Shown here piece after piece: positions 11,726 through 58,340 of a stretch of DNA of 64,000 nucleotides (position 1 is its first letter; each line of letters opens with the position of its first letter). The stretch spans positions 58,203,675-58,267,674 of the forward strand of contig OY997594.1 of assembly GCA_963921825.1 (NCBI GenBank), read 5' to 3'. The position numbers and the translations under genes were made by a program. A model generated the notes under the pieces. The model ran no database searches, was not told where the DNA came from, and saw only the letters and a program-made list of their open reading frames with translations. The stretch is from Erodium maritimum (taxonomy: Eukaryota > Streptophyta > Magnoliopsida > Geraniales > Geraniaceae).

Positions 11726-13953
11726 ATGGTGCACAATCACAGGTACCAGCTACTGAGGAAGTACCAGGGGCTGAGGAAAGGTGAGAAGCTAGGTGGTGCT
11801 GAAGATGAGGAATGTGGCAACTCTAGATACTGCTGCAAGAGGTCCAGGCCTAAGCTCCTCTCTCTCCTTCTTCTCTCTGCTCTCTCTTGCTCCCTCATTT
11901 TAGCACCTCACTTGTTCAGCTCTCTTCTGGGTAACCTTTCTTTTTGAGTTTTTTTTTCCCTCTGTTTGATCTCCTCTTAATTTCTGTCCGTTGGGTCTGT
12001 CTTGACATGGGTTGTTTTTATGTTTGTTTATTTTTGTTTTTTGCAGATTCTTTTGGAGGAGAAAATGAAGACCATGTTGCTGGTTCTGATGTAAATGTTC
12101 CTATGTGTTCCTCAGCCTCTAATGGTATGTGTTTTTGTTGTTTTCTCCCTTGTCTTTTGTTTTTCACTTTTGATTGTTTTGGGTCAGAGGGAGCACCATC
12201 TTTATCTTCCCTAACTGCTTATTTTGATTTCCCTTTGATCCTTAAGTTTCAATCAAATAGTGTCTACATAGTGGATAATAGGTAGGTGAGTGATTGTGCA
12301 AGAATCTGGTAGCTGCCATAGGTGGAGATGAAATGAAATTGGAATTTTAGTTGGGGAATAAAAATGAATTTGTTGAGGTGATTGATTCAGTTAATGATGG
12401 ATGGAGATGGAGCTCCAGCTCCATAACACATTTGAAATTTGATTATTCAACTCTTATAAATACTGGGTATGATCAGAAACTACCAAACAGTAGGTTGATG
12501 TGTTCCCATCAGTCCCTTGTATAAGAATTTACCTTTTCTCTTGATTTCAAGTGTAAGAAGAATCTTGACTTTGCTCAAACTAATGAATCACTGTGTAATA
12601 GCACTGCTAATTGAGTAATTGACTGTAAATGTGATGTCAATTGCAGGAACTATATGTTGTGACAGAAGCAGTATCCGTTCTGATATCTGTTTCATGAAAG
12701 GGGATGTGAGTACACAATCCTCGTCCCACTCACTCTTCTTGCACATCCCTGGAAAAGAAAATGACTACATGAGCTATGGCCCGGGTATGGCCGAGGAAGT
12801 CAAAGGAGCCAATGAAGAGGAGCTCCAACATGAAAAGACTAGACCATATACCCGAAAATGGGAGACCAGTGTGATGGACACCATCACTGAATTGCACCTT
12901 GTCTCGAGGAACTACAAGTCTCCACGGTGTGATGTGAAGCATGATGTCCCAGCAGTGTTCTTCTCCACGGGAGGCTATACTGGTAATGTTTATCACGAGT
13001 TCAATGATGGGATTTTACCTTTGTACATTACTTCACAGCATCTCAAGAAGAAGGTTGTGTTTGTAATAGTTGAGTACCATGATTGGTGGGTTACAAAGTA
13101 TGGGGATATTCTTTCTCGTCTATCAGAACATCCCCCAATAGATTTCTATGGAGACAAGAGAACTCATTGCTTCCCCGAGGCCATTGTTGGTATGAGGATT
13201 CACGATGAGCTTACTGTGGACTCCTCGTTGATGGAGGGTAATGAAAGCATTGCTGATTTCAGGAATCTTCTTGATAAAGCCTATTGGCCAAGAATCAAAG
13301 GTTTGATGCAAGATGAGGCCAGAGAAAGGAAGGAAAGAGAGAAACTTTCCCACGCCCCAACATCAAATTCAAAACATGTGTTGAGAGTCAAAGCCCAAGA
13401 GCTGCACTCGCTGCACAAACCCAAGCTGGTTATCTTGTCAAGAAACGGGTCAAGAGCATTGTTAAATGAGGACTCATTGGTGAGATTGGCTGAGAAAATT
13501 GGGTTTAGAGTTGAAGTCTTGAGGCCTACCCCCACAACTGAATTGGCCAAAGTTTATCGGGTTCTCAATTCGAGCGATGTTATGGTTGGTGTTCATGGAG
13601 CTGCCATGACCCATTTTCTGTTTATGAAGCCTGGCTCTGTGTTCATCCAAGTTGTTCCTCTTGGAACTGTCTGGGCCGCGGAGACTTATTACGGGGAACC
13701 TGCAGTGAAGCTTGGTCTGAAGTATATAGGCTACAAGATTGTTCCAAGAGAGAGCAGTTTGTATGATGAGTATGATAAAGATGATCCCGTTCTTACAGAG
13801 CCGGAGAGTGTGGCCAAGAAGGGGTGGGAAGTCACCAAGAAGATCTATCTTGATAGGCAAAATGTGAGGCTAAACCTTGTAAGATTTCAGAAGCGGCTGG
13901 TTCGAGCTCATCACTACACCTCCAAAATGCACAAGAATGGTCATTCCCAATAA
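11726..13953 (+). CDS. Glycosyltransferase family 61 protein (Golgi type II membrane enzyme)
   Basis: Three exons, 11726-11930, 12047-12124 and 12647-13953, join in phase to give 529 codons. GT61 enzymes transfer sugars such as xylose or arabinose onto xylan, or act on N-glycans, in the Golgi. The protein has a basic N-terminus, one hydrophobic anchor (about residues 43-62, LLSLLLLSALSCSLILAP), a stem, then a catalytic domain beginning near ICCDRSSIRSDICFMKGDV. The GT61 hallmark is VGVHGAAMTHFLFMKPGS near residue 410. The start at 11726 is favoured because it supplies the membrane anchor and clean splice phases. The closest relatives I recall are of the AT2G41640 kind; substrate cannot be told. 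The gene converges on the kinesin gene, with only about 356 bp between stop codons. Confidence 0.92.
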
Positions 13954-24685: not shown

Positions 24686-27600
24686 TTCCCCTCAAGTTGA
24701 GGCCACGCATAACAAGGGTTAACTTGGATAGTATTTGGTCAAAACGAGGGCGGAGAAGCGGCTTTCTGAGCATGTCATCCAGTTGATCATCCGTAGAGAC
24801 ATATTTCACTCGAAGCGAGCCTTGACGAACTTGTTCTCGGAGAAAGTGATAAGTGGTGGCAATGTGCTTTATCCAGGAGTGAAAGATCGGGTTTGCGCTT
24901 AGAGAAGTGGCCCAGTGGTTGTCACATTAAACTACATGAGCGTGTGGACGCTTGTGGCCAAGTTCACCGAGGAGTGCCAAATCCACATGAGTTCAGCAGA
25001 TGTGTCAGCCAATGCCTTGTATTCAACTTCAGTTTAGGATCGAGCTACTGAATTTTATTTTTAAGAGCTTCAAGAAATAGGCGTGGAGCCCAAATAGATG
25101 GTGTAACCAGTAGTAAAGATGAAGTCATCATAATCACCGGCTCAATCCGCATCAAAGTAGCCATGTAGTTGGATAGGGGATGTAGAGGAGATTTTTAACA
25201 CTTAGTCCATAGTACCTGCAAGATACTGAAATAGGAGTTTCAAGGCTTGCCAATGATCCGTAGTTGGAGACTACATGAACTATGACAACTTGTTTACAGA
25301 AAAATCAATGTCAAGTCTCGTTAAGCTCAAGTATTGAAGGCTGCCAACTAACGTACGATATTCAAGAGGAACAAATATCGGAGAGACCCTATTGTGAAGG
25401 AGTGGTGCCGAGGAAGCCATTGGTGTTGAAACAGGTTTGCAATTTGTCATAACAACTTTACGCAACAAATCCTTAACATACTTCTTCTGGGACAAGAATG
25501 CGTCATCAGAGGTAAGAAACACCTCTACACCAAGAAAATAGGACAACGAACCAATGTCTTTTAGAGAGAACCTCTCCGCCAACTTACGAATTAGATCTCG
25601 GATCGAAGATGACGAGCTTCCTGTGACAATGATATCATATACACGAGAACATATATAGTAATGAGATTATTATGGTATGTAAACAGTGATACATCCAAAA
25701 TGGAGTTGGCAAATCTCAAGGAAATGAGATAGGTCTGGAGCTCATTATACCAAGCCCTTAAGGCTTGCTTCCAGCCATATATTTCCTTGTTCAGCTGACA
25801 TATGTGATCCGGGTAGGAGGGATTGACAAATCCTGGTGGTTGTTTCCTACAAACTTCCTCAACTAGAGAACCCTGTAAGAAGGCGTTGTTAACATCCAAT
25901 TGATTTAACAACCACCTGTGTATAATAGTAATAGTAAGAACAAGACAGACGTTCACAAGCTTAATAACTGGACTGAACGTCTTAGTATAATCCTAGCCTA
26001 AACGTTGATTAAATCCTTTAGCAACGAGATGGGATTTGAAGCAATCTAGAGTACCATCCGGATTTTCCTTAACTCAAAATAACTACTTGCAACCAACTAG
26101 ATTTAGATTAGAAGAAGTCGGGACCAATGTTCAAGTGACATTGGATTGAAGAACATCAAGCTCCCTCTGCATCGTCTTGCGCCGATCTGAATGTTCCAAT
26201 ACCTGAGTAATTGTCCTTGGTATGTCCGACAAGGAAGTAGAGGCAAGAAGGTTAAGTTTGGGGATCGGTTTGGACATATTGTTACGTGATCCATGATCAT
26301 TGAGAAAAGAGTTTAAAACATCATATTCACCGCCATTGTTATCAAACAAAATTTTGATTGAATTTGAAAAGAAATTCTCAACGAGGGCCTTGAACTTGAC
26401 AAAAACAGTGTGTGTATCAAACTTGCGTTTCAAAGGATATATCCAAACATATCGAGTAAAGTGATCAACAAAAACACAATAGTACTTCAAGCCATCATAA
26501 GAGAGGATCGGAGAGGTCCAAACATCACTGAATATAATCTCAAGAGGGTAAGAAGAAGAAATACTAGATGAATAAAAAGGAAGTTTGTAACTTCTAATTG
26601 TAAAACATGACGAACATAATGAATGTAAGTGTTCATTAGAGCATAAATTATGAACTTTATTGATCAAATTAAAAGTGACGTTGGATGGATGGCCCAACTT
26701 ATGGTGTCACAGGATAGAGGAAGAAACTTGGGCTTGATGAACGGAATGTGCAGAAGAAGGCCACATGTACATTCCATTAATACACGGGCCTTTAAGAAGT
26801 GTCCTCCCTGTATGAATGTCGTTCACAATTAATGGCGGATTCAGCTTTTCTAACGAGGGGGGCACCAATTGTTTTTCCCTAATGATTCTTATTTCTAATG
26901 ATTGGTCTCCCATTCGGTTTTTCAACCGAGTCTTAATGATATTCATAGTAGAAAATATGATCTCCATAGTTGTAGTAGCGACGGGTAAGATCAGTCTTGT
27001 TGGCACTACTTTATAATTTTTATCAGAAAGACCGGTATCTAATCTTGCTGATTTCTCCTTCTCGTCAGAATTGATGGACTCAGAATCATTTTTTGAAATA
27101 TTTCTTCATGATTGTAGTTAATTTTGTATAGAATAAAATTCAAAACTTAAATTGATGTAGTCTCCAATTTTAGATAATACCTTAAATACAAATAATTTTT
27201 TTCTAAACTAATTAGAATTGGGAAATTAAAATAAAAAAAATATAAGTACAAAAAATTGAAAAATATATTAAAAGAATACAAAAAAATGATGCACCTAATA
27301 CTAATCCACGGCTGAATTTCCTCAAAAAAAAATATGGTTGAATCTTATTTGTATTGAATAATTACGTTGAATAGTTATGCTTGTAATTATGAAATTAACA
27401 AAAAAGAAAAAGAAATACACGACTGAATTTTATTATTATTAAATAGTTATTTTGATCTTCTTTTAGACAATGATTGTTTTGATTAGTTATGTCTTTAATT
27501 AGAAAAAAGGGAAAGGATAGATGCTAAAATAACTGAAATTATTCTCACTTTCTCTATTTTCAGGGGCTCAAAGACACACGTAATTGAATTTTTTAAAAAT

Positions 27601-28602: not shown

Positions 28603-29769
28603 TCATATCAGGGGTTTAACTGTGTGACCACTCTCTTGTTGATGTCGTTTTTTGGAGCATAGTGCTCCGAAAAAAGTGTGCCATATCCACAGGTCTTGGG
28701 ATGCAACGACTTCTAGCATGATTATGGGGACGTTTGTGTGCTCCCTGCTCGAGAATTGTGCAGCCCATACCATAGAACAATTCTTCCAATACCAGTGCAT
28801 GCAGTCAAGACTCCCTATCATCCCCGGGAAGTCGCATAGTTCGTTGATTTCCAACAGATGACGTGTATCCTCCTCGGTCGGGCGTCGTAGATATGTCCGC
28901 CCAAAAATCATGATGACGCCGATGCAAAACTTCTTGACGCATTCCAAAGTAGTGCTCTTCGCCATTCGCAAGTACTTATCAACGGTATCGACATGACCTC
29001 CATAGCATAAACGATGTGCTACCGTGTACTTCTGGTTTGGAGAGAATATGTGCTTCCCTGTAGCATCCTGTTGTTGACGGAATTACGCGTACCGGTCACT
29101 CAATACATTCATGATCTGTACGAAAGTCCCCTCGACATCCAGAAGCGTCGACAAAATTGTTGGTCGTTGTACACCTGATTAGGCGCAAAGTAGTCAGCAA
29201 TCAAGCGGTCGTTCCTTCAGCTTGATTACGCTCTATCACTCTCCGCTTTGGTGGTGCCGTCGAGGTTGAACCCTCGGCCTCATCTTCTGCCCTTGGATGT
29301 ATACTTCCCAAAAGCCGAATTTGAATTCGTAGCGTCGTTGCTATAGCCACCCTTGTCATCGTCTCATTGATTTCTTCAGGGTCATTTTCTCTAACTCTGA
29401 CAATGTTGGAAAACGATCCATCGTTAAAAAGAAAAAAAATCCGAGAACGAAGTTTGAGAGAAAAGAAAATGAAAGACGAATTGTAGTGTAGAAGAGAGGT
29501 GTGAAACTGAGGTAGGGTGATTGTGTATTTGTAGGAAAAATTTAGGGTTATTTTGAATTCAGTCGGCGCCATGTGTCAGCGTGGGACAAACCCGCCGACT
29601 AGCCGTTGGGCCAACGAAGGCTCGTCGCGCCGTGGTAGATTCTTGAGGCGACAATCTGCGACGGCACGCCAAACCACGGCTCCAACGACGGTGCGTCGTG
29701 ACAGCGAGCCGTGACAGGGCCTACGACAATACGCAAACGACGACACATCGACGACCGTTGAAACTGCTC
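28603..29769 (-). pseudogene. Harbinger transposase remnant with one intact terminus
   Basis: Minus-strand blocks follow the HARBI1-like order: a start region from ATG 29421; KRRVIERNQAEG (about 29240); YTVAHRLCYGGHVDTVDKYLR (about 29030-28970); then FPGMIGSLDCMHWYWKNCSM with the catalytic-type Asp, IIMLEVVASQDLWIWHTFFGA (28971-28640). Everything after the LWIWHTFFG block is missing, and frame changes are present. The upstream edge is a Harbinger-type terminus: GAGCAGTTTCAACGGTCG on the minus strand, ending at 29769, followed by TAA. The other terminus was not found, so the element is truncated. Confidence 0.8.
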
Positions 29770-35949: not shown

Positions 35950-38771
35950 ATGGGATCATCAGAAGTTAGTGGAAGTATAGATGACAGGAACAAGTTGGGG
36001 AGAAAATTTAAAGAAATGTATCTGGTTTGGGAAGATGTGAATGTGGGGCTGAGGAATGATAGTGCAGATGGAACAAAGAAGTTGCTTATCAGTGAGTTGA
36101 GTGGTTATGCTGAAGCAGGAAGGATCGTGGCCATTATGGGTCCTTCTGGTTGTGGCAAGTCTACTTTGCTTGATGCTTTGGCTGGTAAGTAATTAATATA
36201 TCGTTTCCTCAGTCTCTCATGCTGTATAAATAATACCTAAATAATTTTAGAAGTATTTATGATAACTTGCTGATATTCAAACAGGAAGGACCTTGGGAAG
36301 TCTTGAGATGTCTGGAACTGTCCTGCTCAATGGCAAGAAGAGGAGTACTGGCTGCAGAGATGTTGTAAGTATAACTCTGAGAGTCGACTCAAAGTAGCTA
36401 TAGTTCTTGTGGGTATTGGTTAGGTGTCCTAAGTTGTTCTGAAATGCCTTTTTTTTATAAACATCTTGATCTTTCACAATGATTTCAAGTAGTTTCATAT
36501 TTGTATGTGTTTGCGGTGATATTTTAGGCATATGTTACACAAGAAGATGTCTTCATGGGGACTCTGACAGTCAGAGAAACCCTTTCATGCTCAGCTCACC
36601 TGAGGCTTCCAGCAAACACCAGCAAAGAAGAGATAAAAAATCTGGTAGATAAAACAATAGCAAAGTTGGGTCTCAGAGACTGTGCTGATAACAAGATTGG
36701 AAACTGGCTGATCCGAGGTCTCAGCAGTGGAGAAAAGAAGAGGCTCAGTATTGGTCTTGAAATGCTTTCACAACCCAGTGTCTTGTTTCTTGATGAACCC
36801 ACAAGCGGACTGGATGGTGCTTCGGCCTTTTTTGTGATTCAATCTCTCAGACACATTGCCCTCGAAGGAAAGATAGTGATTTGCTCCATTCATCAGCCAA
36901 GTAGTGATGTGTTTGGTTTCTTTGATGACCTGCTCCTCCTCTCAGGCGGAGAAACTGTTTATTTTGGAGAAGCTAAGGCAGCTGTAAAGGTGCACTATAT
37001 CTGTCTAAATGATAGGAAAAGTAGGAGTAAAACTTTAGTTCTATAATTATTTCAAAATCCAAACATGACAAAATTGTTTACTTTTCTTATGCAGTTCTTT
37101 GCTGACGCAGGATTCCCTTGTCCAACAAGAAAAAATCCTCCGGACCATTTCCTAAGGTGCATTACTTCAGATTTCGACAAAGTCTTCAAAACTTTGATTC
37201 AATCCCAAAGAAACAGTGTATGTATTAGTATCATTAATTAACATTTATTTTTTGGTCTCTCCCATTCATTGCAGTAACACCTAATTTTGTTGTCTCTTTA
37301 GGGAGTTTCAAGACTTTCTGAGATTCCAATGGATTTAACAACTGCTGAGATCAAAGAAGTACTTGTCAAGAAATACAAATCTTCTAAATATTCAAAAGGC
37401 ACGAGAAAAAGAATTCAAGAAATTGCACTCATTGTAACAATCATTTCGCTTATTTTACATCAAATCTTGCATATTTGTCAGCTAGATCAAGAAGCTTGGA
37501 TTGACTATACTGTTACAGGAAGAATTGGACACCAGATCAAACCTGAGCAGTCCAGGCTGGTGGAGGCAGTTATGCACAATGACCCGAAGATCGTCCCTGA
37601 ACATGTCTAGAGATATTGGGTACTACTGGTTGCGAATTGTGTTCTATATGGTAGTGTCATTGACCACAGGAACATTCTACCTCAAAGTCGGGACAAATGG
37701 CAGTGCACTCATGTCTAGAAGCAAGTGTGATGGATTTATCTATGGTCTCATGATTTGTCTCTCTATTGGAGGCTTGCCCTTTTTCATTGAGGAACTTAAG
37801 GTAAACATGAACCCAATATCAATTCTAATTATATCTTGTAATTCAGCTCCCACTATTTCTGATCAAAATTGAATCATCAGGTCTTTAAGAGAGAAAGGCT
37901 AAGTGGGCATTGTGGAGAAGCTGTGTATGTTGTGGCTAACTTGGTCTCATCATTGCCTTTTGTGATAATCATTTCTGTCACTTCAGGAACAATAATCTAT
38001 TACATGGTAGGGTTTCATCCTGGGATCACTCACCATGCCTATTTCTGCATAAACCTGTTTTGCTGCATTGCCATCACAGAAGTGTGTACTCAGGTTGTGG
38101 CGTCACTGGTTCCTGATCTCCTCATGGCCATGGGAACCACAGCTGGTGTTATTGTAAGCAACTAATCTCCCTAGTAATTTCTGATGTATATGACAACTGA
38201 AACTGATGGATATATGGTGTAATTACAATACCAACACAGGTGATCACAATGATGGCATCTGAACTGTTCCAAAGAACAGCTGATCTTCCCAAGTTCTTCT
38301 GGCGATACCCAATGTCCTACATCAGTTATGCAGCCTGGGGAGTGGAGGTATACACACACTGCACCTTACCCGTTATTTTATTTACCATTTTGCCACTGAC
38401 ATGTCACATGTCTCTGTGTTTAGGGTCTGTACAAGAATGACATGATAGGGCTTGAATTCGATCCCTTGGTACCTGGAAACCCAAAGCTAAAGGGAGAGGT
38501 CATCCTCCGGACAATGTTGGGGATCAACCCGGTTACTTCAAAATGGTGGAACATAGCTGCTTTAATCTGCATATTGCTATGTTACAGACTGCTCTTTTAC
38601 ATAATTCTCAAGTACAAAGTGAAGATGATGGCATGGCTACAAATGCTCTTTGCCAAGAGAAATGTAAAGCTCCAGACATTATCTGGCGCTTCATTCCAAA
38701 CCAAGAGACGACACCAACCTCCTGATGCACTTCCTTCTCTTGAGTATATCGGATCTCCTAATATCATTTAA
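35950..38771 (+). CDS. ABCG (WBC) half-transporter
   Basis: Nine exons (35950-36184, 36285-36364, 36528-36989, 37095-37217, 37302-37433, 37519-37800, 37881-38153, 38240-38347, 38424-38771) close in phase to 680 codons. The ATPase domain comes first: Walker A GPSGCGKS (residues 64-71), signature LSSGEKKRL (about 170-178), Walker B VLFLDEP, then the H-loop CSIHQPSS. The C-terminal half has the six-helix ABC2 membrane region ([19 protein letters not shown] onward, [11 protein letters not shown] near the end). Half-size ABCG proteins of the ABCG11/12/15 group export cuticular lipids from epidermal cells as dimers; the paralogue and substrate are uncertain. For exon 6 the acceptor at 37518/37519 keeps the conserved frame, while an upstream AG at about 37481 would not. 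Confidence 0.9.
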
Positions 38772-51134: not shown

Positions 51135-51535
51135 GTTTATACTAGAGCTGGGCATAACACACCGAAACCACCGGAACCGCCCGTCCCCGGCCAGAACCGT
51201 CACCGGAGAAACCGGAACCGGGAAAATAACCGCCGGCGTCGGTGAGGAAAAGGGTGAACCGGCGAGTATAAAAACGGGGCCCGGTTTTCAGCATTGGGAA
51301 CCGGGGGTTAAACCAAACCGGCCGGCCCCAAGCGGGCTTCTCGGACCTGGGCCTTAGGCCCGTCTTCGTTGCTCGACACAGGAAGACGCGGCCCGTTTAC
51401 CTCGCCTCGGCCCGTTTACGCGCGAAGCGCAGTTCCCTCCTCAGTCAATCGTAGCCGTCCGATGTAGGTTTTGATTTACAGCCGTTGATTTATCTCTAAA
51501 CCCTCAGCCTCAACTTCTCTTCCCATTTCCTTTTC

Positions 51536-51608
51536 TCTCTCTACAGCCGCGTCTCTCTCTCTACAGCCGCGTCTCTCTCTCTACAACCGCGTCTCTCTCT
51601 CTCTCTCT
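51536..51608. repeat. CT-rich minisatellite in the hAT leader
   Basis: Three near-identical units of TCTCTCTCTCTACAGCCGCG, followed by a CT run. Confidence 0.85.
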
Positions 51609-52004
51609 ACTCAGTCTCGTCTTCTCGCATCGCATTGAATGCCCTCACCTAACCAGACCCGACCTCACCTCTCTCTCTACTTATTCTTCCCTCTCTCTCA
51701 GTCTCTCCTCTATCGTGTCCATCCGAAGCCTTCCTTTCTCTCTCGTCTCTACTCACCTCACCAAACCCTCTCAGATTCACTGTCAAAGGCATGGTCCTCT
51801 CACTCCCTCTCCTCCAACTCTCCGAATCCCTTGCTTCTCTGACACGACTTCATTTAATGCGGAGGAGGAAGAGGAGGAGGCGATGGGGCTATAAAAACCC
51901 GACCGGCTGAGCATTTATGATAAGCACCGAGTCCAATTTAGGGTTTCCGAAATCTGAGTGTCTGACTATCAATTGAGACTGAGTGAGGCTCTGAGAGAGG
52001 AAGG

Positions 52005-55000
52005 ATGGAGAAGGAACACGAGAAGGAGAAGAGGATTGCAAAGGGGAAGGTAATTTCTCAACTTTTCCGATTTAGGGTTCATGATAATTTAGGGGTTTTG
52101 TGTTTATTTAGGGTTTCATTCTGATTTAGGGTTCGATTGGTGATGTACATTGATTAATTCATGATTTTAGGTTTTCAAATCTGAATTTGGGTTTTTGTTG
52201 TATTATTTAGGGTTTCATTATAATTTAGGGTTCCAAATGTGATTTATGGTTCGATTATTGATTTACAGTAATGAAGTGTTGATTTTATGTTGTCCAAATA
52301 TCAGTTTATGTGATGTATTTGAATTTAATTAAGTGTTTGATTATTAGAATTTAGGGTTTTTGTTTTGGGTTAGGGTTTGAGTTTGATTTAAGGGGTTAAT
52401 AGTGATTCTAATCACTATTCAACCTCTAAATCAGAGTCAAACCCTAACTCAAAGCTAAACCCTTATTTTTTTTTGTGATGGCTTTTTTTTGCTTTAGTGT
52501 TTCTTTTTTTATGATTTATCAGGTTGCTTTTGTATTTATGGTTTCTGTTTTCATTGTTTAAGAGGTTTTGTTCTTTTTGCTTTATGGTTATAATTTTGAT
52601 GTATATGAATTTAATTATGGGTTTTGTTAGAATTTAGGGTTTTTGTTCGGGGTTAGGGTTTGAGTCTGATGTAGGGGTTTAATAGTGATTCTACTCACTA
52701 TTCAACCCCTTAATCAGACTCAAACCCTAACCCAAAACAAAACCCCTATTTCTGATAATGAAACCCTAATTTTTTGTATGTATATGAATCTGATTTAGGG
52801 TTTAGTTGTTGTTGCTTTTAGTGTTTTAACTCATGACTGTTTCTTTTAAAGGGTATCAAACCATGATTTATGGTTTTGTGTGTTAAGGCTTTTATTTTGC
52901 TTTAGTGTAAACTTTTTTTTATGCATATCAATCTGATTTAGGGTTTTGATGTATATGAATCTGATTTAGGGGTTTAATAGTGATTCTAATCACTATTCAA
53001 CCCCTTAATCAGACTCAAACCCTAACCCAAAACAAAACCCTATTTCTGATCATGAAACCCTAATTTTTTTATGTATATGAATCTGATTTAGGGTTTAGAT
53101 GTTGTTGCTTTTAGTGTTTTAACTCATGACTATTTCTTTTAAAGGGTATCAAACCCTGATTTATGGTTTTGTGTGTTAAGGCTTTTATTTTTCTTTAGTG
53201 TAAAGTTTTTTTTATGTATATCAATCTGCTTTAGGGTTTTGTATGTGTATGAATATGATTTAAGGTTTTAGTGTAGTTGCTTTTAATGTTTTTAACTCAT
53301 TACCCTTTCTTTTTAAGGGTATCAAACCCTGATTTAGGGTTTTAAAAATCAGATCTGATTTAAAAATCATATATGTTTTCAAAATTTGATATGTTTAAAT
53401 TTCTGATTTGTTTTAAAAATTGGTTAATGATAGTTTGTTGAACTTTATATGCAGGGGATATTCCAAAGTGGTTTAGTCACCCAACCTGGTCAAGGTTCTC
53501 GAGCTGGAGGCATAGTGATAGGAGAGAAAGGACGAGCACAATCAACTGCCTCCTCAGGCTCTAGGAGCGAGGGAGCAATAGTTGTGGGAAGTAAGAAGAC
53601 TGGGCAAGGTGGGAAGGATGCAGCAGCAGCAGCAGCTGCATCCTCATGTAAAAAAAACTCCCTTCAAAGCGCACTTCTACTGTATGGAAACACTTTGATT
53701 TGGTTGTAGATGGAAATGAGTCTAGGGCTTTTTGTAAGTATTGTCCTAAAAACTACCCTGCTGGTTAAAGTAAATATGGCACTAGTACTTTAAAATTGCA
53801 TATAGAGAAGTGCGATAAGAACCCTAACAAGATAGTAATTGATCTAAAGCAATCCAAATTAGGTTTTCACAAGGTGGGAAAGGGTAAGGGAAAAGAGGGG
53901 GGAATTAGTTGCTTGGCACTTTAATCAACAAGTATGTCGAAGTGCCTTGACCAAAATGATAGTCCTTGATGAATTGGCCTTTAGGTTTGTTGATGGGGAG
54001 GGGTTTCATCATTTTGTATCTGCTTGTTGTCCAATGTTTGTGATCCCCTCTAGATATACTATGATTAGGAATATATACAAGTTATATGAGGCGGAAAAAC
54101 TCAAGCTGTTTGAGTATTTACGAAACTCAAAATTTAGAGTCTCTTTCACAACGGATACTTGGACAAGTGTCCAACAAGTCAATTATATGTGCATAACTGC
54201 ACATTTCATTGATGATGCATGGGTTTTACACACAAAAAAATTAAATTTCTGCCCAATAACTTCTCATCGAGGGAAAGATATTGGGAGAGCTGTTGAAACC
54301 TGTTTGAATGCATGGGGGTTAGATAACATAATAGCAATAACAGTAGACAATGCATCCCCTAACAAAGACGCCATAGAATATTTGAGGGTACAACTTAATC
54401 AAAGAATGTTGTGCTCTAATTTATTTGATGGTAGATTTATGCATATGAGGTGTGTTGCACATATTTTGAACCTGATCGTTAATGATGGTCTTAAGGAAGT
54501 TGATAGGTCTGTAGAAAGGATAAGGGCTGCTGTGAGGTTCATTAGGCATTCTCCAATGAGGTTATCTAGGTTTAAAACTGCTTGTGTGCTGGCTGGTTAT
54601 AAAACCAAGCGGCTGCTGTCCGTTGATGTGTCCACAAGGTGGAACTCAACCTACCTTATGCTTCATTCAGCTTGTAGGTTAGAGAATGCATTCCATCAAT
54701 ATAACATGTTAGATCCTTGTTTGAATGCTGAGTTGGATTTTAAGGTTTGGAAAAAAAATTGGGTCCAATTTAGGGAGGTTGACTCAATCTGATTGGGTTG
54801 TAGTTAAATCCCTGATGAAGTTTTTGGAAACTTTTTTTTTGTGCAACAGTTAGAATATCAGGTTCCTCATATGCTACATCAAATGTGATACTGGATGAAA
54901 TATCAGACATTAATTTGCTTATAAAAGAGGGTTTAGAAAGTGATAATTTAAGCATGCAAAACATGTCCTCTAGGATGAATGAAAAATTCAACAAGTATTT

Positions 55001-55658
55001 TAGGGATTTAGGAATGTTGAACATGTTCACATTCCTAGCACCAATTTTTGATCCCCGAAAGAAGTTGAGTTATGTCAATTATCTTTTAGAGGACATGTAT
55101 CCTGCTGAAGTTTATGCTACTCTATCCCAATGTGTCAAAGTATCTCTTGATGATATGTTTGCACATTATAAAAATGAATTTGGTGTTGATGAGTCCGAAA
55201 CACAATCGGACTGTTCCGATAGTGTTGTTGACAAAGTATCAAAACACCGAAATTTTGAAAAATTTTAAAGGCTTTGTTCTTCACGTGTTGGTGCTCCTCA
55301 AAATGAGTTGGAAACATATTTAAATGAGCAGCGAGCAAGTGACAGTTCTAAATTCAAAGTGTTTTCATGGTGGGCAGATAATGCTCATCGATTCCCTATT
55401 CTTGTTAGGATGGCTAGAGATATTCTAGTTATTCCCATGACATCAGTTTCTAGTGAAAGTGCATTTAGTGCTGGCAGCAGAGTACTCGAAGCTTTTAGGA
55501 GTTCATTGAGTACACGAGTTATGCAAGCATTGATTTGCACACAAGATTGGTTGAAAGGTATTAATATAATTCAAAATTTAGAAAGTATGGAGAAGGATGA
55601 AGACTTGATTCAAGATGAGGAGGATGGTAATAACTCACCTTTTTCGTATCTGTTTTGA
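52005..55658 (+). pseudogene. hAT transposase (BED finger, RICESLEEPER-like), broken mainly at homopolymers
   Basis: Exon 1 (52005-52049, MEKEHEKEKRIAKGK) joins across a GT-AG intron to 53455 (GIFQSGLVTQPG). Then come a BED zinc finger (STVWKHFDLVVDG, CKYC, LKLHIEKC), the catalytic region with FTTDTWTSVQQVNYMCITAHF, ITVDNASPNKDA and MRCVAHILNLIVNDGL, then VDVSTRWNSTYLML, and the C-terminal dimerisation domain with FSWWADNAHRFPILVRMA and SSESAFSAGSRVL (to 55658). The frame shifts at A8 (53650-53657), G6 (53897-53902), A8 (54751-54758) and T9 (54832-54840), and in-frame TAA stops occur at about 53776 (inside the BED finger) and about 55266. Otherwise the family length and order are complete. 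Confidence 0.88.
52365..53035. repeat. Three copies of a palindromic, telomere-like repeat in the hAT leader intron
   Basis: At about 52367-52450 and 52660-52736, a left arm (GGGTTAGGGTTTGAGT then TTTAATAGTGATTCTA-type sequence) is followed by its near reverse complement (TCACTATTCAACCCCTTAAT then CAGACTCAAACCCTAACC), giving hairpins with arms of about 35-38 bp and a loop of about 6 bp. A third copy at about 52965-53035 has a full right arm and a shortened left arm. TTTAGGG/CCCTAAA words, the plant telomere heptamer, are frequent throughout 52070-53340. Confidence 0.8.
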
Positions 55659-56410
55659 TATGTTTTTTATATGAATTGGTTACAAATAATTATTTTTGCA
55701 TCTAATTTCCAGTAATTGATACCTTTGCCACCACAATTGGCGCTCCAATACTTGTGTGATCGAACTACCAAAAGTTGGTTAGTTACGAACTTATAAATAT
55801 CATACTTGCCTTCATTTCATTTTTTTTATTTGTTATTGTTAATGTTTTCCTTATTTCATTTTGTGATAGGTACTGTTCTTGTAAGGAAAGCAAATGAAAG
55901 CTTCCTTTTTGAGAGCAAATGAAAGCTCTTGTTGGAAGCAAATGAAAGCTTCCAACGTTTTGAAGGCAATGGAATCACTTATGTAAATTTGCTTTTGTCT
56001 TTTGTTTGCCACTTATGTAATTTTGTAATTTTGGTTGTATGTAAGAAGTAAGAACAAATATGTTGGTGTTCTGATCTGATGGATGGTTTTGTTTGGTTGG
56101 TAACCTGACTATGTAAGTTTGTATTGGAAATCAAGAAGTTGAATTTATAAGTTTAAATTTGAAATCAAGAAGTTTTTTTTTTATCAGTTGGGCTTCATTT
56201 TGGGCCTAAATAGTAATGGGCTTTAACTGGGCCGGTTGAACCGGTGAAATCACCGACCCACCCGACCCTTTACTCGGCCGATTATCACCACAATAGGTCG
56301 GTTTTGGGGTCGGCGCCGGTGTTGGTTTTGTCACACCGGCGAGGTCGGTTTCGGTGGCGCCATGGCTGGCCGGTGCCGGTTACCCGACCGTGCCCAGCCC
56401 TAGTTTATAC

Positions 56411-56742
56411 AATAAAATGAGGTTTATCTTTGATACCTATCTTAATAGACAAAATCAATAAATAAATATCTTATATCCCGTGGAAGAAGAAACCATAGTA
56501 AAATAATGGTGAGGTGTGCATGCACATATAATGATATTTAAATGTCTAGGTCATATATATATTATATATATAAAGAAGAAGTAGGGGGTAGGCATAGCGC
56601 GTACGTCTCAACAACCATTTGATCTTATTTGTGTTTGTAATAACACAAAGAAGAAATTAAGAGGGAGAAAAGAAAAGAAGATCGATCGAGGGAGAGTGCA
56701 ATATAGTGCAGAATTGCATGATCAGCTGACCTTGCAAATCTC
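56411..56742 (+). promoter_or_regulatory. Promoter and leader region of the HSFB gene, candidate TATA
   Basis: TATATATAAAG at about 56564-56574 is a candidate TATA box about 365 bp before the main ATG. A very short upstream ORF (ATG ATC AGC TGA, 56718-56729) precedes the larger upstream ORF. The hAT element ends only about 150 bp before the TATA candidate. Confidence 0.35.
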
Positions 56743-56865
56743 ATGAACTCTGGAGTCGTGTTGGGTTTCTATTGCTGGGGATGGGAGTTCTTAACTGCCC
56801 TTCTTCTCTTCTCTTCTAAATCTTCCTCTTCAATAACCTCCTTCTTCTTCTTCTCTACTTATTGA
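56743..56865 (+). CDS. Conserved-peptide upstream ORF of the HSFB gene, 40 codons
   Basis: ATG 56743 opens a 40-codon frame ending at TGA 56863-56865, 64 bp before the main start at 56930. It encodes GFYCWGWEFLTALLLFSS followed by a Ser/Phe-rich tail. From memory, the second upstream ORF of Arabidopsis TBF1/HSFB1 carries a FYCW.WEFLTALLLFS core, which represses translation of the main ORF until immune or starvation signals relieve it. The near-identical core here, in the leader of a class B HSF, indicates selection on the peptide. Function in this species is inferred. Confidence 0.8.
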   Translation: MNSGVVLGFYCWGWEFLTALLLFSSKSSSSITSFFFFSTY

Positions 56866-56929: not shown

Positions 56930-58340
56930 ATGATGGAGGAAGAAGCAGCTGTTGTAAGTGTAACGATGGAGAAAAGCTTGTTGGAATATGTGAGGAAGTC
57001 CACACCGCCACCTTTCCTGATGAAAACGTACATGCTGGTGGAGGATCCTTCCACAAACGACGTCGTTTCATGGAACTCCGACGGCTCCGCTTTCGTCGTT
57101 TGGCAGCCGGCGGAGTTTTCACGGGATCTCCTCCCCACCCTCTTCAAGCACAGCAACTTCTCCAGCTTCGTCCGCCAGCTCAACACTTATGTATGTTTTA
57201 ATCATTCATTAATATTCCTTTTTTACTTTTATATTTCGATTCTTGGAACACTTTGACCCGGTTCGATTCATTATTCATACATGTATATTCACTTTCGGAT
57301 CGATCTCCAATATTTTTCTAGGTGTGACCAAATCTAGATTAAGTAAGGTGATAGATTGTTCATTTTAACCTAACTGTAGTTGACTAATTCGTTTGACTAT
57401 TATATTGGAGGAACGAAATAGATTCAATTGTTTATTTATATAGCTATTTTAATTACCAACATAAGAAAATTATATATACAAATAAATGTCACACTGATCC
57501 TATTAGTATTTTAGCGCGGACAAGCTAGTTTACGGATTTTGGAGGTGAATCATTAGAAAAAAAGAACTCAGTGAGAAGATAGTTAAAGGGCTGGTCCATT
57601 TTAGGGTAAATTTGTTAAATTGAGAAAAAATTAATTATTTTTGTAGAGAATGGGGTTTGAACCCGGGTTGATAAAGAATCAAGCTCTAATATCATAGTAG
57701 AGGACCAACACAATTGAAAGCTGAAGCCGATAGTTGAAGACTTAATTATAATTATATTTTAGCATTGTTTATGATTTGTGGAGTTGAGATTGAAATTGAT
57801 AAATTGTATATATGTAAGGGGTTTCGGAAAGTGGCAACAACAAGGTGGGAGTTTTGCAACGACATGTTCCGGAGAGGCAAGAGAGAACTGCTCTGTGAAA
57901 TCCGTCGGAGAAAGGCATGGACCAACAAGCTCCATCCTCGTCAAAACCAGACCTTAGTAGTAGCACCCAACGATAATGAATCCTTGGAGGAGGAAGAGCA
58001 AAGATCATCGTCAACATCATCGTCGTGCGGGTACAGTAGCCTCGTCGACGAGAACAAAAGGCTCAAGAAAGAGAATGGGGTGTTGAGCTCGGAGCTGATG
58101 AGCATGAAAATGAAGTGCAAGGAGCTTCTTCACCTTGTCGCCAAGCACCATAACAACCAGCCAGAGAAAGAAGATGATGATGATGATGATGATGATGATG
58201 AAGAAGAAGAAGGTATTGATAATGAGGGGCCAAAGTTGTTTGGGGTGAGGTTGGAAGTGCAAGGAGAGCTCAAGAGGAAGAGAGCTCGAGAGATGGGTGA
58301 AGGTGGGAGCAAACTCTTGCTATCTCAATCATGCAAATAA
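56930..58340 (+). CDS. HSFB3: Class B heat-stress transcription factor (HSFB3-like)
   Basis: Exons 56930-57190 and 57819-58340 join in phase 0 at the conserved position inside the DNA-binding domain (RQLNTY|GFRKV), giving 260 codons. The winged-helix DNA-binding domain spans about residues 23-118 ([46 protein letters not shown]) and recognises nGAAn heat-shock elements. A heptad region ([17 protein letters not shown]) follows, with class B spacing. An unusual acidic run of nine Asp plus Glu lies at about 205-218. The class B repressor motif KLFGVRLE (226-233) and a basic NLS (LKRKRAR) follow. Lack of an activation motif fits a repressor. B3 rather than B1 or B2 is suggested by neighbouring genes and is less certain. 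Confidence 0.9.
58168..58207. repeat. (GAT)n/(GAA)n coding microsatellite in the HSFB gene
   Basis: About nine GAT codons followed by GAA codons encode the Asp/Glu run. Such tracts vary in length between alleles. Confidence 0.85.

Follow-up and report, generated by a model that had tools for sequence, protein, structure and literature searches.

Which gene stands behind a conserved-peptide upstream open reading frame (CPuORF) in the leader of a class B HSF gene of Erodium maritimum, how did this uORF come to be there, and what would it do? The question is raised by a window of 64,000 nucleotides, the whole stretch of DNA analysed, on contig C7 of a 763-Mb assembly. A preliminary description had pointed out in it a 40-codon frame upstream of an HSFB start, had taken the encoded peptide for the core of the second uORF of TBF1/HSFB1, and had offered two explanations for a gene whose neighbours seemed to suggest HSFB3: either the uORF is ancestral to several class B HSFs, or the gene is a different class B member than synteny suggests. 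It had further predicted translational control by stress.

The group to which the HSFB1 uORF belongs, HG18, has been listed for At4g36990 (HSFB1) and rice LOC_Os09g28350/28354, with Gosra and Nicbe as EST sources (Hayden and Jorgensen 2007, PMC2075485), and was recovered in the ESUCA survey, the gene table of which is contained in a supplement (PMC7106846). In TBF1, the CPuORF is the second uORF and has four Phe and a conserved segment of 22 residues, a conservation that the authors leave unexplained (Jorgensen and Dorantes-Acosta 2012, PMC3426882); the same article describes a block that is relieved by pathogen challenge or Phe starvation. According to reviews, uORF2 of AtHSFB1 exerts a translational repression that heat relieves (PMC4746267), the HSFB1 CPuORF is repressive and heat-relieved (PMC12303099), and galactinol has been linked to it (PMC11062462); effects of galactinol, pathogen and heat are treated together with GA-rich R-motifs (PMC11062462, PMC12303099). 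For HSFB3, no uORF was found in print in the literature searched, supplementary gene tables lying outside the search. As far as the sources were available, HSFB3 has a single mention, in a table, in the uORF review, the HSFB1 papers examined contain no statement on an HSFB3 uORF, and the early CPuORF survey gave no hit for the term HSF; the letters of the core peptide were not found in the paper texts.

The downstream gene, in the following HSFB3a, can be named from its own protein. Exon 1 (56930..57190, forward strand, as for all exons, short frames and identical blocks given below) contains the start of the main ORF, with a further in-frame AUG at 56933, and exon 2 (57819..58340) contains the end of the DNA-binding domain and the LFGV motif. 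Joined at the usual HSF intron after LNTY (57190/57819), which splits the HSF DNA-binding domain (PF00447, E 1.5e-30), they encode 260 aa, including the class B repressor tetrapeptide LFGV in a tail reading LFGVRLE. Among the best 120 of 5,055 protein matches (E <= 1e-20), many of which are without a subclass name, all subclass names are B-3, B3 or HsfB3a, and none is B-1, B-2 or B-4. In a tree of 20 rows (13 from the Erodium maritimum genome and seven from the database, with four class A rows included), the window gene, a second copy from the same genome and five named B-3 proteins—from Vitis, Pistacia, Theobroma, Punica and Chenopodium—form one 7-row clade with 100/100 support, apart from the B1-, B2- and B4-type rows and class A. 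Judged by its protein sequence, the window gene is an HSFB3.

The notion of a different class B member consequently fails, and it is extremely improbable that the gene is really HSFB1 (TBF1) and the uORF simply the known one. The core does match HSFB1-linked uORFs; however, the main ORF stands outside the HSFB1 clade and within the B3 clade, its tail is LFGVRLE versus LFGVW in the HSFB1-type genes, and a separate HSFB1-type gene is present on another contig, C5. As for the neighbours, the HSFB3 identity holds on account of the protein itself, while synteny with HSFB3 loci is not established, because the Pfam matches of 30 window ORFs are to a GT61 glycosyltransferase (12619-13950), ABC transporter pieces (36528-38162) and transposon proteins, among the latter an integrase core (26134-26706) and a Plant_tran protein (28606-29082).

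Does the peptide occur elsewhere in the genome? A six-frame search of the assembly with the uORF peptide gave five matches: the query itself, one on C4 (E 4.6e-9), one on C5 (E 3.3e-6) and two weak ones on C3 and C1 (E 0.76 and 2.5), which are dismissed as chance since no HSF-domain place, of 34 in the genome, is close to either. The three confident matches lie in the leaders of HSFB3a, of the second copy HSFB3b on C4, and of the HSFB1-type gene on C5. The C4 match opens a 33-codon uORF, MNCGAVSGFYCWGWEFLTALLLFSSLSSIFFSF, 189 nt 5' of HSFB3b exon 1, and the C5 match lies within a 37-codon uORF, MEACDNPVHSRFFLSGFYCWDWEFLTALLLFSCSSST, 194 nt 5' of the HSFB1-type gene. With 187 nt in HSFB3a, the distance to the main AUG is near-equal in all three leaders, in each of which the uORF AUG and the open frame are kept. 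HSFB3b (L006/L009, C4:8443391-8456625) has an intron of about 12.3 kb and an open exon 2 frame, the HSFB3a intron measuring 628 bp.

In the C5 leader, an earlier 17-codon uORF overlaps the 37-codon uORF, which makes the CPuORF the second uORF of this leader, in keeping with the description of TBF1. The HSFB1 label of this gene, and of two further genes from Psophocarpus and Colocasia discussed below, was assigned via tail and clade and not via a named B-1 protein: all three have the tail LFGVW, which we take to be that of HSFB1, and fall into one clade (95/95). For the C5 gene, an additional basis is that the other class B genes recognised in the genome are already assigned, four as B2-type, two as B4-type and two as B3. 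Moreover, HSFB3 being absent from rice and maize according to the potato HSF paper (PMC4836240), one would not expect the gene of the monocot Colocasia to be an HSFB3.

The uORF of the window itself (56743..56865) comprises 40 codons followed by TGA and encodes MNSGVVLGFYCWGWEFLTALLLFSSKSSSSITSFFFFSTY before the stop; the frame, its coordinates, the TGA and the core FYCWGWEFLTALLLFS that had been reported beforehand are all borne out by translation. It is out of frame with the main ORF, and its stop is separated from the main AUG by 64 nt. The 18-codon core GFYCWGWEFLTALLLFSS (56764..56817) is identical in HSFB3b and agrees at 16 of 18 residues with the HSFB1-type uORF. In an alignment of ten uORF peptides, each piece hand-cut at its first likely M, the core has 15 invariant columns, and the G of CWGW is replaced by D in two of the ten rows.

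Upstream of the core, the two subclasses differ. Eudicot HSFB1-type peptides start with M(E/D).., followed by N.-.-S-.-F-F/I-L-S up to the core; the HSFB3a and HSFB3b leaders have (A/P)DLANL in frame before the AUG and then MN(S/C)G.V.GFYCW. The 17 nt directly 5' of the uAUG (56726..56742), identical in HSFB3a and HSFB3b, still encode DLANL in the uORF frame, resembling the N-terminal half of HSFB1-type uORFs (..TNLVHSR..). Both HSFB3 genes have the start context CTC-AUG-A, and HSFB1 has GTG-AUG-G. As a general rule, the former is a weak and the latter a strong context, by which the HSFB3a uAUG would rate as weak. In the simplest reading of these sequences, HSFB3 would have lost the original uORF start and would use an inner AUG.

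Further small features accompany the uORF. A minimal uORF of three codons (MIS and a stop; 56718..56729) and an out-of-frame AUG nested within the uORF, opening 12 codons (56781..56819), are both lacking at the corresponding places of HSFB3b. About 125 nt 5' of the uAUG, a 17-nt block (56602..56618) is identical in HSFB3a and HSFB3b and may possibly lie near the transcription start. A GA-rich stretch (56650-56696) 5' of the uORF is mostly missing from the aligned HSFB3b leader. A hAT transposon of 5.26 kb (51143-56402) reaches into the promoter region of HSFB3a, its end lying 340 nt before the uORF AUG. It is flanked by an 8-bp target duplication, GTTTATAC (51135-51142 and 56403-56410), has the end repeats TAGAGCTGGGCA/TAGGGCTGGGCA and transposase domains PF14372 and PF05699, and includes, at 52090-53040, clustered imperfect inverted repeats with TAGGGTTT motifs.

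Relatives of the peptide were also recovered from other plants. With the 40-aa query, 5.77 billion proteins yielded two short matches, from Pistacia integerrima (E 8.7e-5) and Manihot esculenta (E 4.1e-4), both having the core in common with the query and an N-terminus of the HSFB1 kind; the cassava locus number was not found in the papers. A length-shifted search for longer uORF-bearing proteins returned five of seven scored candidates. In the gene models from Psophocarpus (P0125) and Colocasia (P0128), all or most of the uORF is joined to an HSFB1-type protein, and in that from Bauhinia (P0124) the fusion partner is a DUF1685 protein. P0126 runs on into an HSF exon in another frame, which is nearest to HSFB1 (58%, as compared to 44-47% for the HSFB3 copies). 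P0127 reads MNCGVVLGFYCWGWEFLTALLLFSSS, which is almost the HSFB3 N-terminus, followed in frame +1 by an HSFB3-like exon 1 (59% to HSFB3a, 54% to HSFB3b and 43% to HSFB1). Unlike in the window gene, the P0127 uORF frame continues into exon 1; since it also runs past the LNTY position into intron-like sequence, the contig may be genomic. Taken by themselves, the E-values are weak (P0127 5.1e-3, P0128 3.6e-2); judged by its exon 1, P0127 would place an HSFB3 version of the uORF in at least one other sequence source. The earlier identification of the core with the second uORF of TBF1/HSFB1 is upheld by the second-uORF position on C5 and by the fused Psophocarpus and Colocasia models, the HG18 match being judged against the HSFB1-type uORF of the same genome and not against printed HG18 or Arabidopsis letters.

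The distribution among HSF genes of the genome was surveyed via PF00447, which marked 34 places; the 30 with loci were scanned over 1.5 kb upstream of the domain (four without loci were left out, and L052, L054 and L061 gave no LNTY-ended exon 1). The best upstream windows score 95-102 in HSFB3a, HSFB3b and the C5 gene, as compared to 8-37 in the remaining 27 loci, where no uORF of this kind was found within the 1.5 kb. The score of 37 comes from an HSFA-like locus (L037, upstream of C6:1536345), in which GFKLWGFEGFLTCL is followed by an internal stop and FS, and is probably due to chance. In a shuffle control of nine leaders (100 mononucleotide shuffles each, BLOSUM62), shuffled leaders score at most 30 versus 95-102 for the three real ones; together with the protein-database E-values and the two additional genome loci, this excludes a chance match. 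Six further class B leaders, four of them HSFB2-type and two HSFB4-type (755 nt scanned for one and 1,000 nt for the rest), do not rise above chance for the core, with scores of 11-16 and shuffle maxima of 22-30. The uORF is thus carried by three of the nine class B genes recognised in the genome and is not general to class B. The search of class B leaders that the preliminary description had called for, run here within one genome, places the core before the HSFB1-type gene and both HSFB3 genes and not before the HSFB2-type genes, and to this extent its idea of a uORF shared by several class B HSFs holds.

That the core matters as a peptide follows from the comparison between subclasses. Between HSFB3a and HSFB1, 14 of the 54 core nucleotides and two of the 18 residues differ, with eight changed codons being synonymous and two altering the amino acid. 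When 14 random changes were placed on the 18-codon core in a neutral simulation, with transitions twice as likely, two or fewer amino-acid changes occurred in 0 of 200,000 runs, the least being three. Given this mostly synonymous change, the core is under purifying selection as a peptide; its synonymous sites are saturated between HSFB1 and HSFB3, and NG86 gave no dS. The 18-codon cores of HSFB3a and HSFB3b differ by a single synonymous change, with 18/18 residues kept, as compared to dS 0.78, dN 0.13 and 23% differing residues in the main ORF. Over uORF codons 1-24, dN is 0.055 and dS 0.067, so that this pair alone is no proof of peptide selection, the case resting on the HSFB1 comparison; in the dN/dS check proposed beforehand, the HSFB3 pair by itself is uninformative. 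All three amino-acid changes of the pair fall within the first seven uORF codons, which indicates that the uORF N-terminus is free to change.

The HSFB3 uORFs are unusually alike also at the nucleotide level: one of ten four-fold sites differs in uORF codons 1-24, versus 35 of 77 main-ORF sites (Fisher p 0.041). This gives a hint of an extra nucleotide-level constraint in HSFB3, and no more than a hint in view of the small numbers and of gene conversion as another possible cause. Could conservation then act on the DNA or RNA—as a promoter element, an RNA structure or a small-RNA site—instead of on a translated peptide? The near-identity of HSFB3a and HSFB3b, including the 17 nt before the AUG, would fit, as would a leader fold somewhat better than that of shuffled sequences (z -1.93, with 4 of 100 shuffles equally good). 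However, a nucleotide element would not require that eight of ten changed codons between HSFB1 and HSFB3 be synonymous, nor does it sit well with the AUG and open frame retained in all three leaders, and we consider this explanation very unlikely.

Regarding origin, the core probably predates the split between HSFB1 and HSFB3 and was kept in both, and a single gain before the split is the simplest reading of the sequences. In the best tree, B1 and B3 are sisters (80/37); the groupings B1+B2 (p-AU 0.155) and B2+B3 (p-AU 0.151) are not rejected, and B3+B4 and B1+B4 have p-AU values of 0.034 and 0.028, respectively. HSFB3 has been suggested to have arisen after the parting of monocots and dicots (PMC4836240). 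In our 20-row tree, the monocot Colocasia gene falls inside the HSFB1 clade, which would imply an earlier B1/B3 split than in that paper, with loss of HSFB3 in monocots. Under either date, an HSFB1-like, uORF-bearing ancestor would pass the uORF on.

The low support for the sisterhood of HSFB1 and HSFB3 speaks against this common descent and leaves room for a later capture, in which an HSFB1 promoter or leader was copied to the HSFB3 ancestor, or transferred by gene conversion, after the subclasses had separated. Conversion could also account for the likeness of the two HSFB3 uORFs at four-fold sites, and exon 1 of HSFB3a and HSFB3b contains a 50-nt identical block. Yet the saturated synonymous sites of the HSFB1 and HSFB3 cores mean that any leader transfer would be old, and the agreement in spacing to the main AUG among HSFB1, HSFB3a and HSFB3b likewise disfavours capture, which we regard as unlikely, though clearly less so than conservation as DNA or RNA.

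Taking the evidence together, we favour, with a probability of roughly 0.77, an HSFB1-type (HG18-type) CPuORF in the HSFB3 leader that would act by nascent-peptide repression relieved by stress, this being, by analogy with HSFB1, the likely mechanism. Ribosomes initiating at 56743 would make the core peptide, as deduced from the work on HSFB1, and the peptide would act from within the ribosome, with fewer initiations at the HSFB3 AUG as the outcome. Ribosomes leaking past the weak uAUG would translate HSFB3 and provide a basal level, and the block would be lifted under stress, be it by heat, an immune response, uncharged tRNA-Phe or a change in a metabolite. Since HSFB3 lacks an AUG for the N-terminal half of the HSFB1-type peptide, the core should suffice. 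The two HSFs would thus probably share an old translation-restraining switch.

Two further observations count against this proposal for HSFB3. After the 18-residue core, the tail up to the stop is longer in HSFB3a (15 residues) and HSFB3b (8) than in HSFB1 (4), and the review on uORFs, in the part available, does not place AtHSFB3 among the seven of 21 Arabidopsis HSFs with uORFs (PMC4746267), so a uORF is not universal in HSFB3. A related alternative is that ribosomes largely bypass the conserved uORF of HSFB3 because of its weak uAUG, so that it would persist as a relic hardly affecting translation of the main ORF. The apparent loss of the original start and the contrast between the weak context in both HSFB3 genes and the strong one in HSFB1, as judged by the general rule, are in its favour, and HSFB2b provides a precedent of uORFs without effect on the main ORF (Zhu et al., via PMC4746267). 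A relic would hardly be expected to keep 18 of 18 core residues between paralogues with main ORFs 23% different, although local gene conversion could achieve the same; there is a small chance that this alternative is correct.

Going one step beyond nascent-peptide repression in HSFB3, we put forward tentatively, and at somewhat less than even odds, that the core is an autonomous nascent-chain switch with one origin in the HSFB1/HSFB3 ancestor, kept through loss of the upstream half and relocation of the start, which would bring two repressors under a shared peptide-sensing control, HSFB3 being leakier by its weak uAUG and under an extra nucleotide constraint. HSFB3 is of interest as a natural paralogue with the core but without the N-terminal half, with the start moved and the tail longer, and may show which part matters. 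The HSFB1, HSFB3a and HSFB3b leaders of one plant offer a ready comparison for peptide sensing and start-codon strength. Furthermore, HSFB3 would likely be under a translational control that RNA-level stress surveys would miss.

How does the HSFB3 uORF compare with known systems? Within class B, the leader of Arabidopsis HSFB2b also contains uORFs, which according to the review do not regulate the main ORF (PMC4746267); unlike HSFB3, the HSFB2-type leaders of Erodium maritimum are without the core. The HSF papers examined, as far as available, give no subclass tail motifs, LFGV being named in some as a class B motif. The GA-rich stretch of the HSFB3a leader recalls the R-motifs of TBF1, which, however, sit on or after the uORFs (PMC11062462). 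The CPuORFs of bZIP11 and SAC51 are likewise peptide-conserved uORFs before a regulatory transcription factor and are metabolite-regulated (PMC3426882, PMC11062462), a likeness by analogy only, without sequence comparison. The closest correspondence is with HG18, with which the uORF of the window has in common a short AUG-started frame that precedes the main ORF of a class B HSF and is read in a different frame from it, and a conserved peptide with several Phe, the core of which is 16/18 identical to that of the HSFB1-type uORF of the same genome. It differs from HG18 in starting at an inner AUG of weak context, with the N-terminal half not read from an AUG, and in the main ORF, HSFB1 being the only subclass named for HG18 in the sources as available. 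As the main ORF is HSFB3, we regard the uORF as a homologue of HG18 type that belongs to a paralogous gene, outside the group as published.
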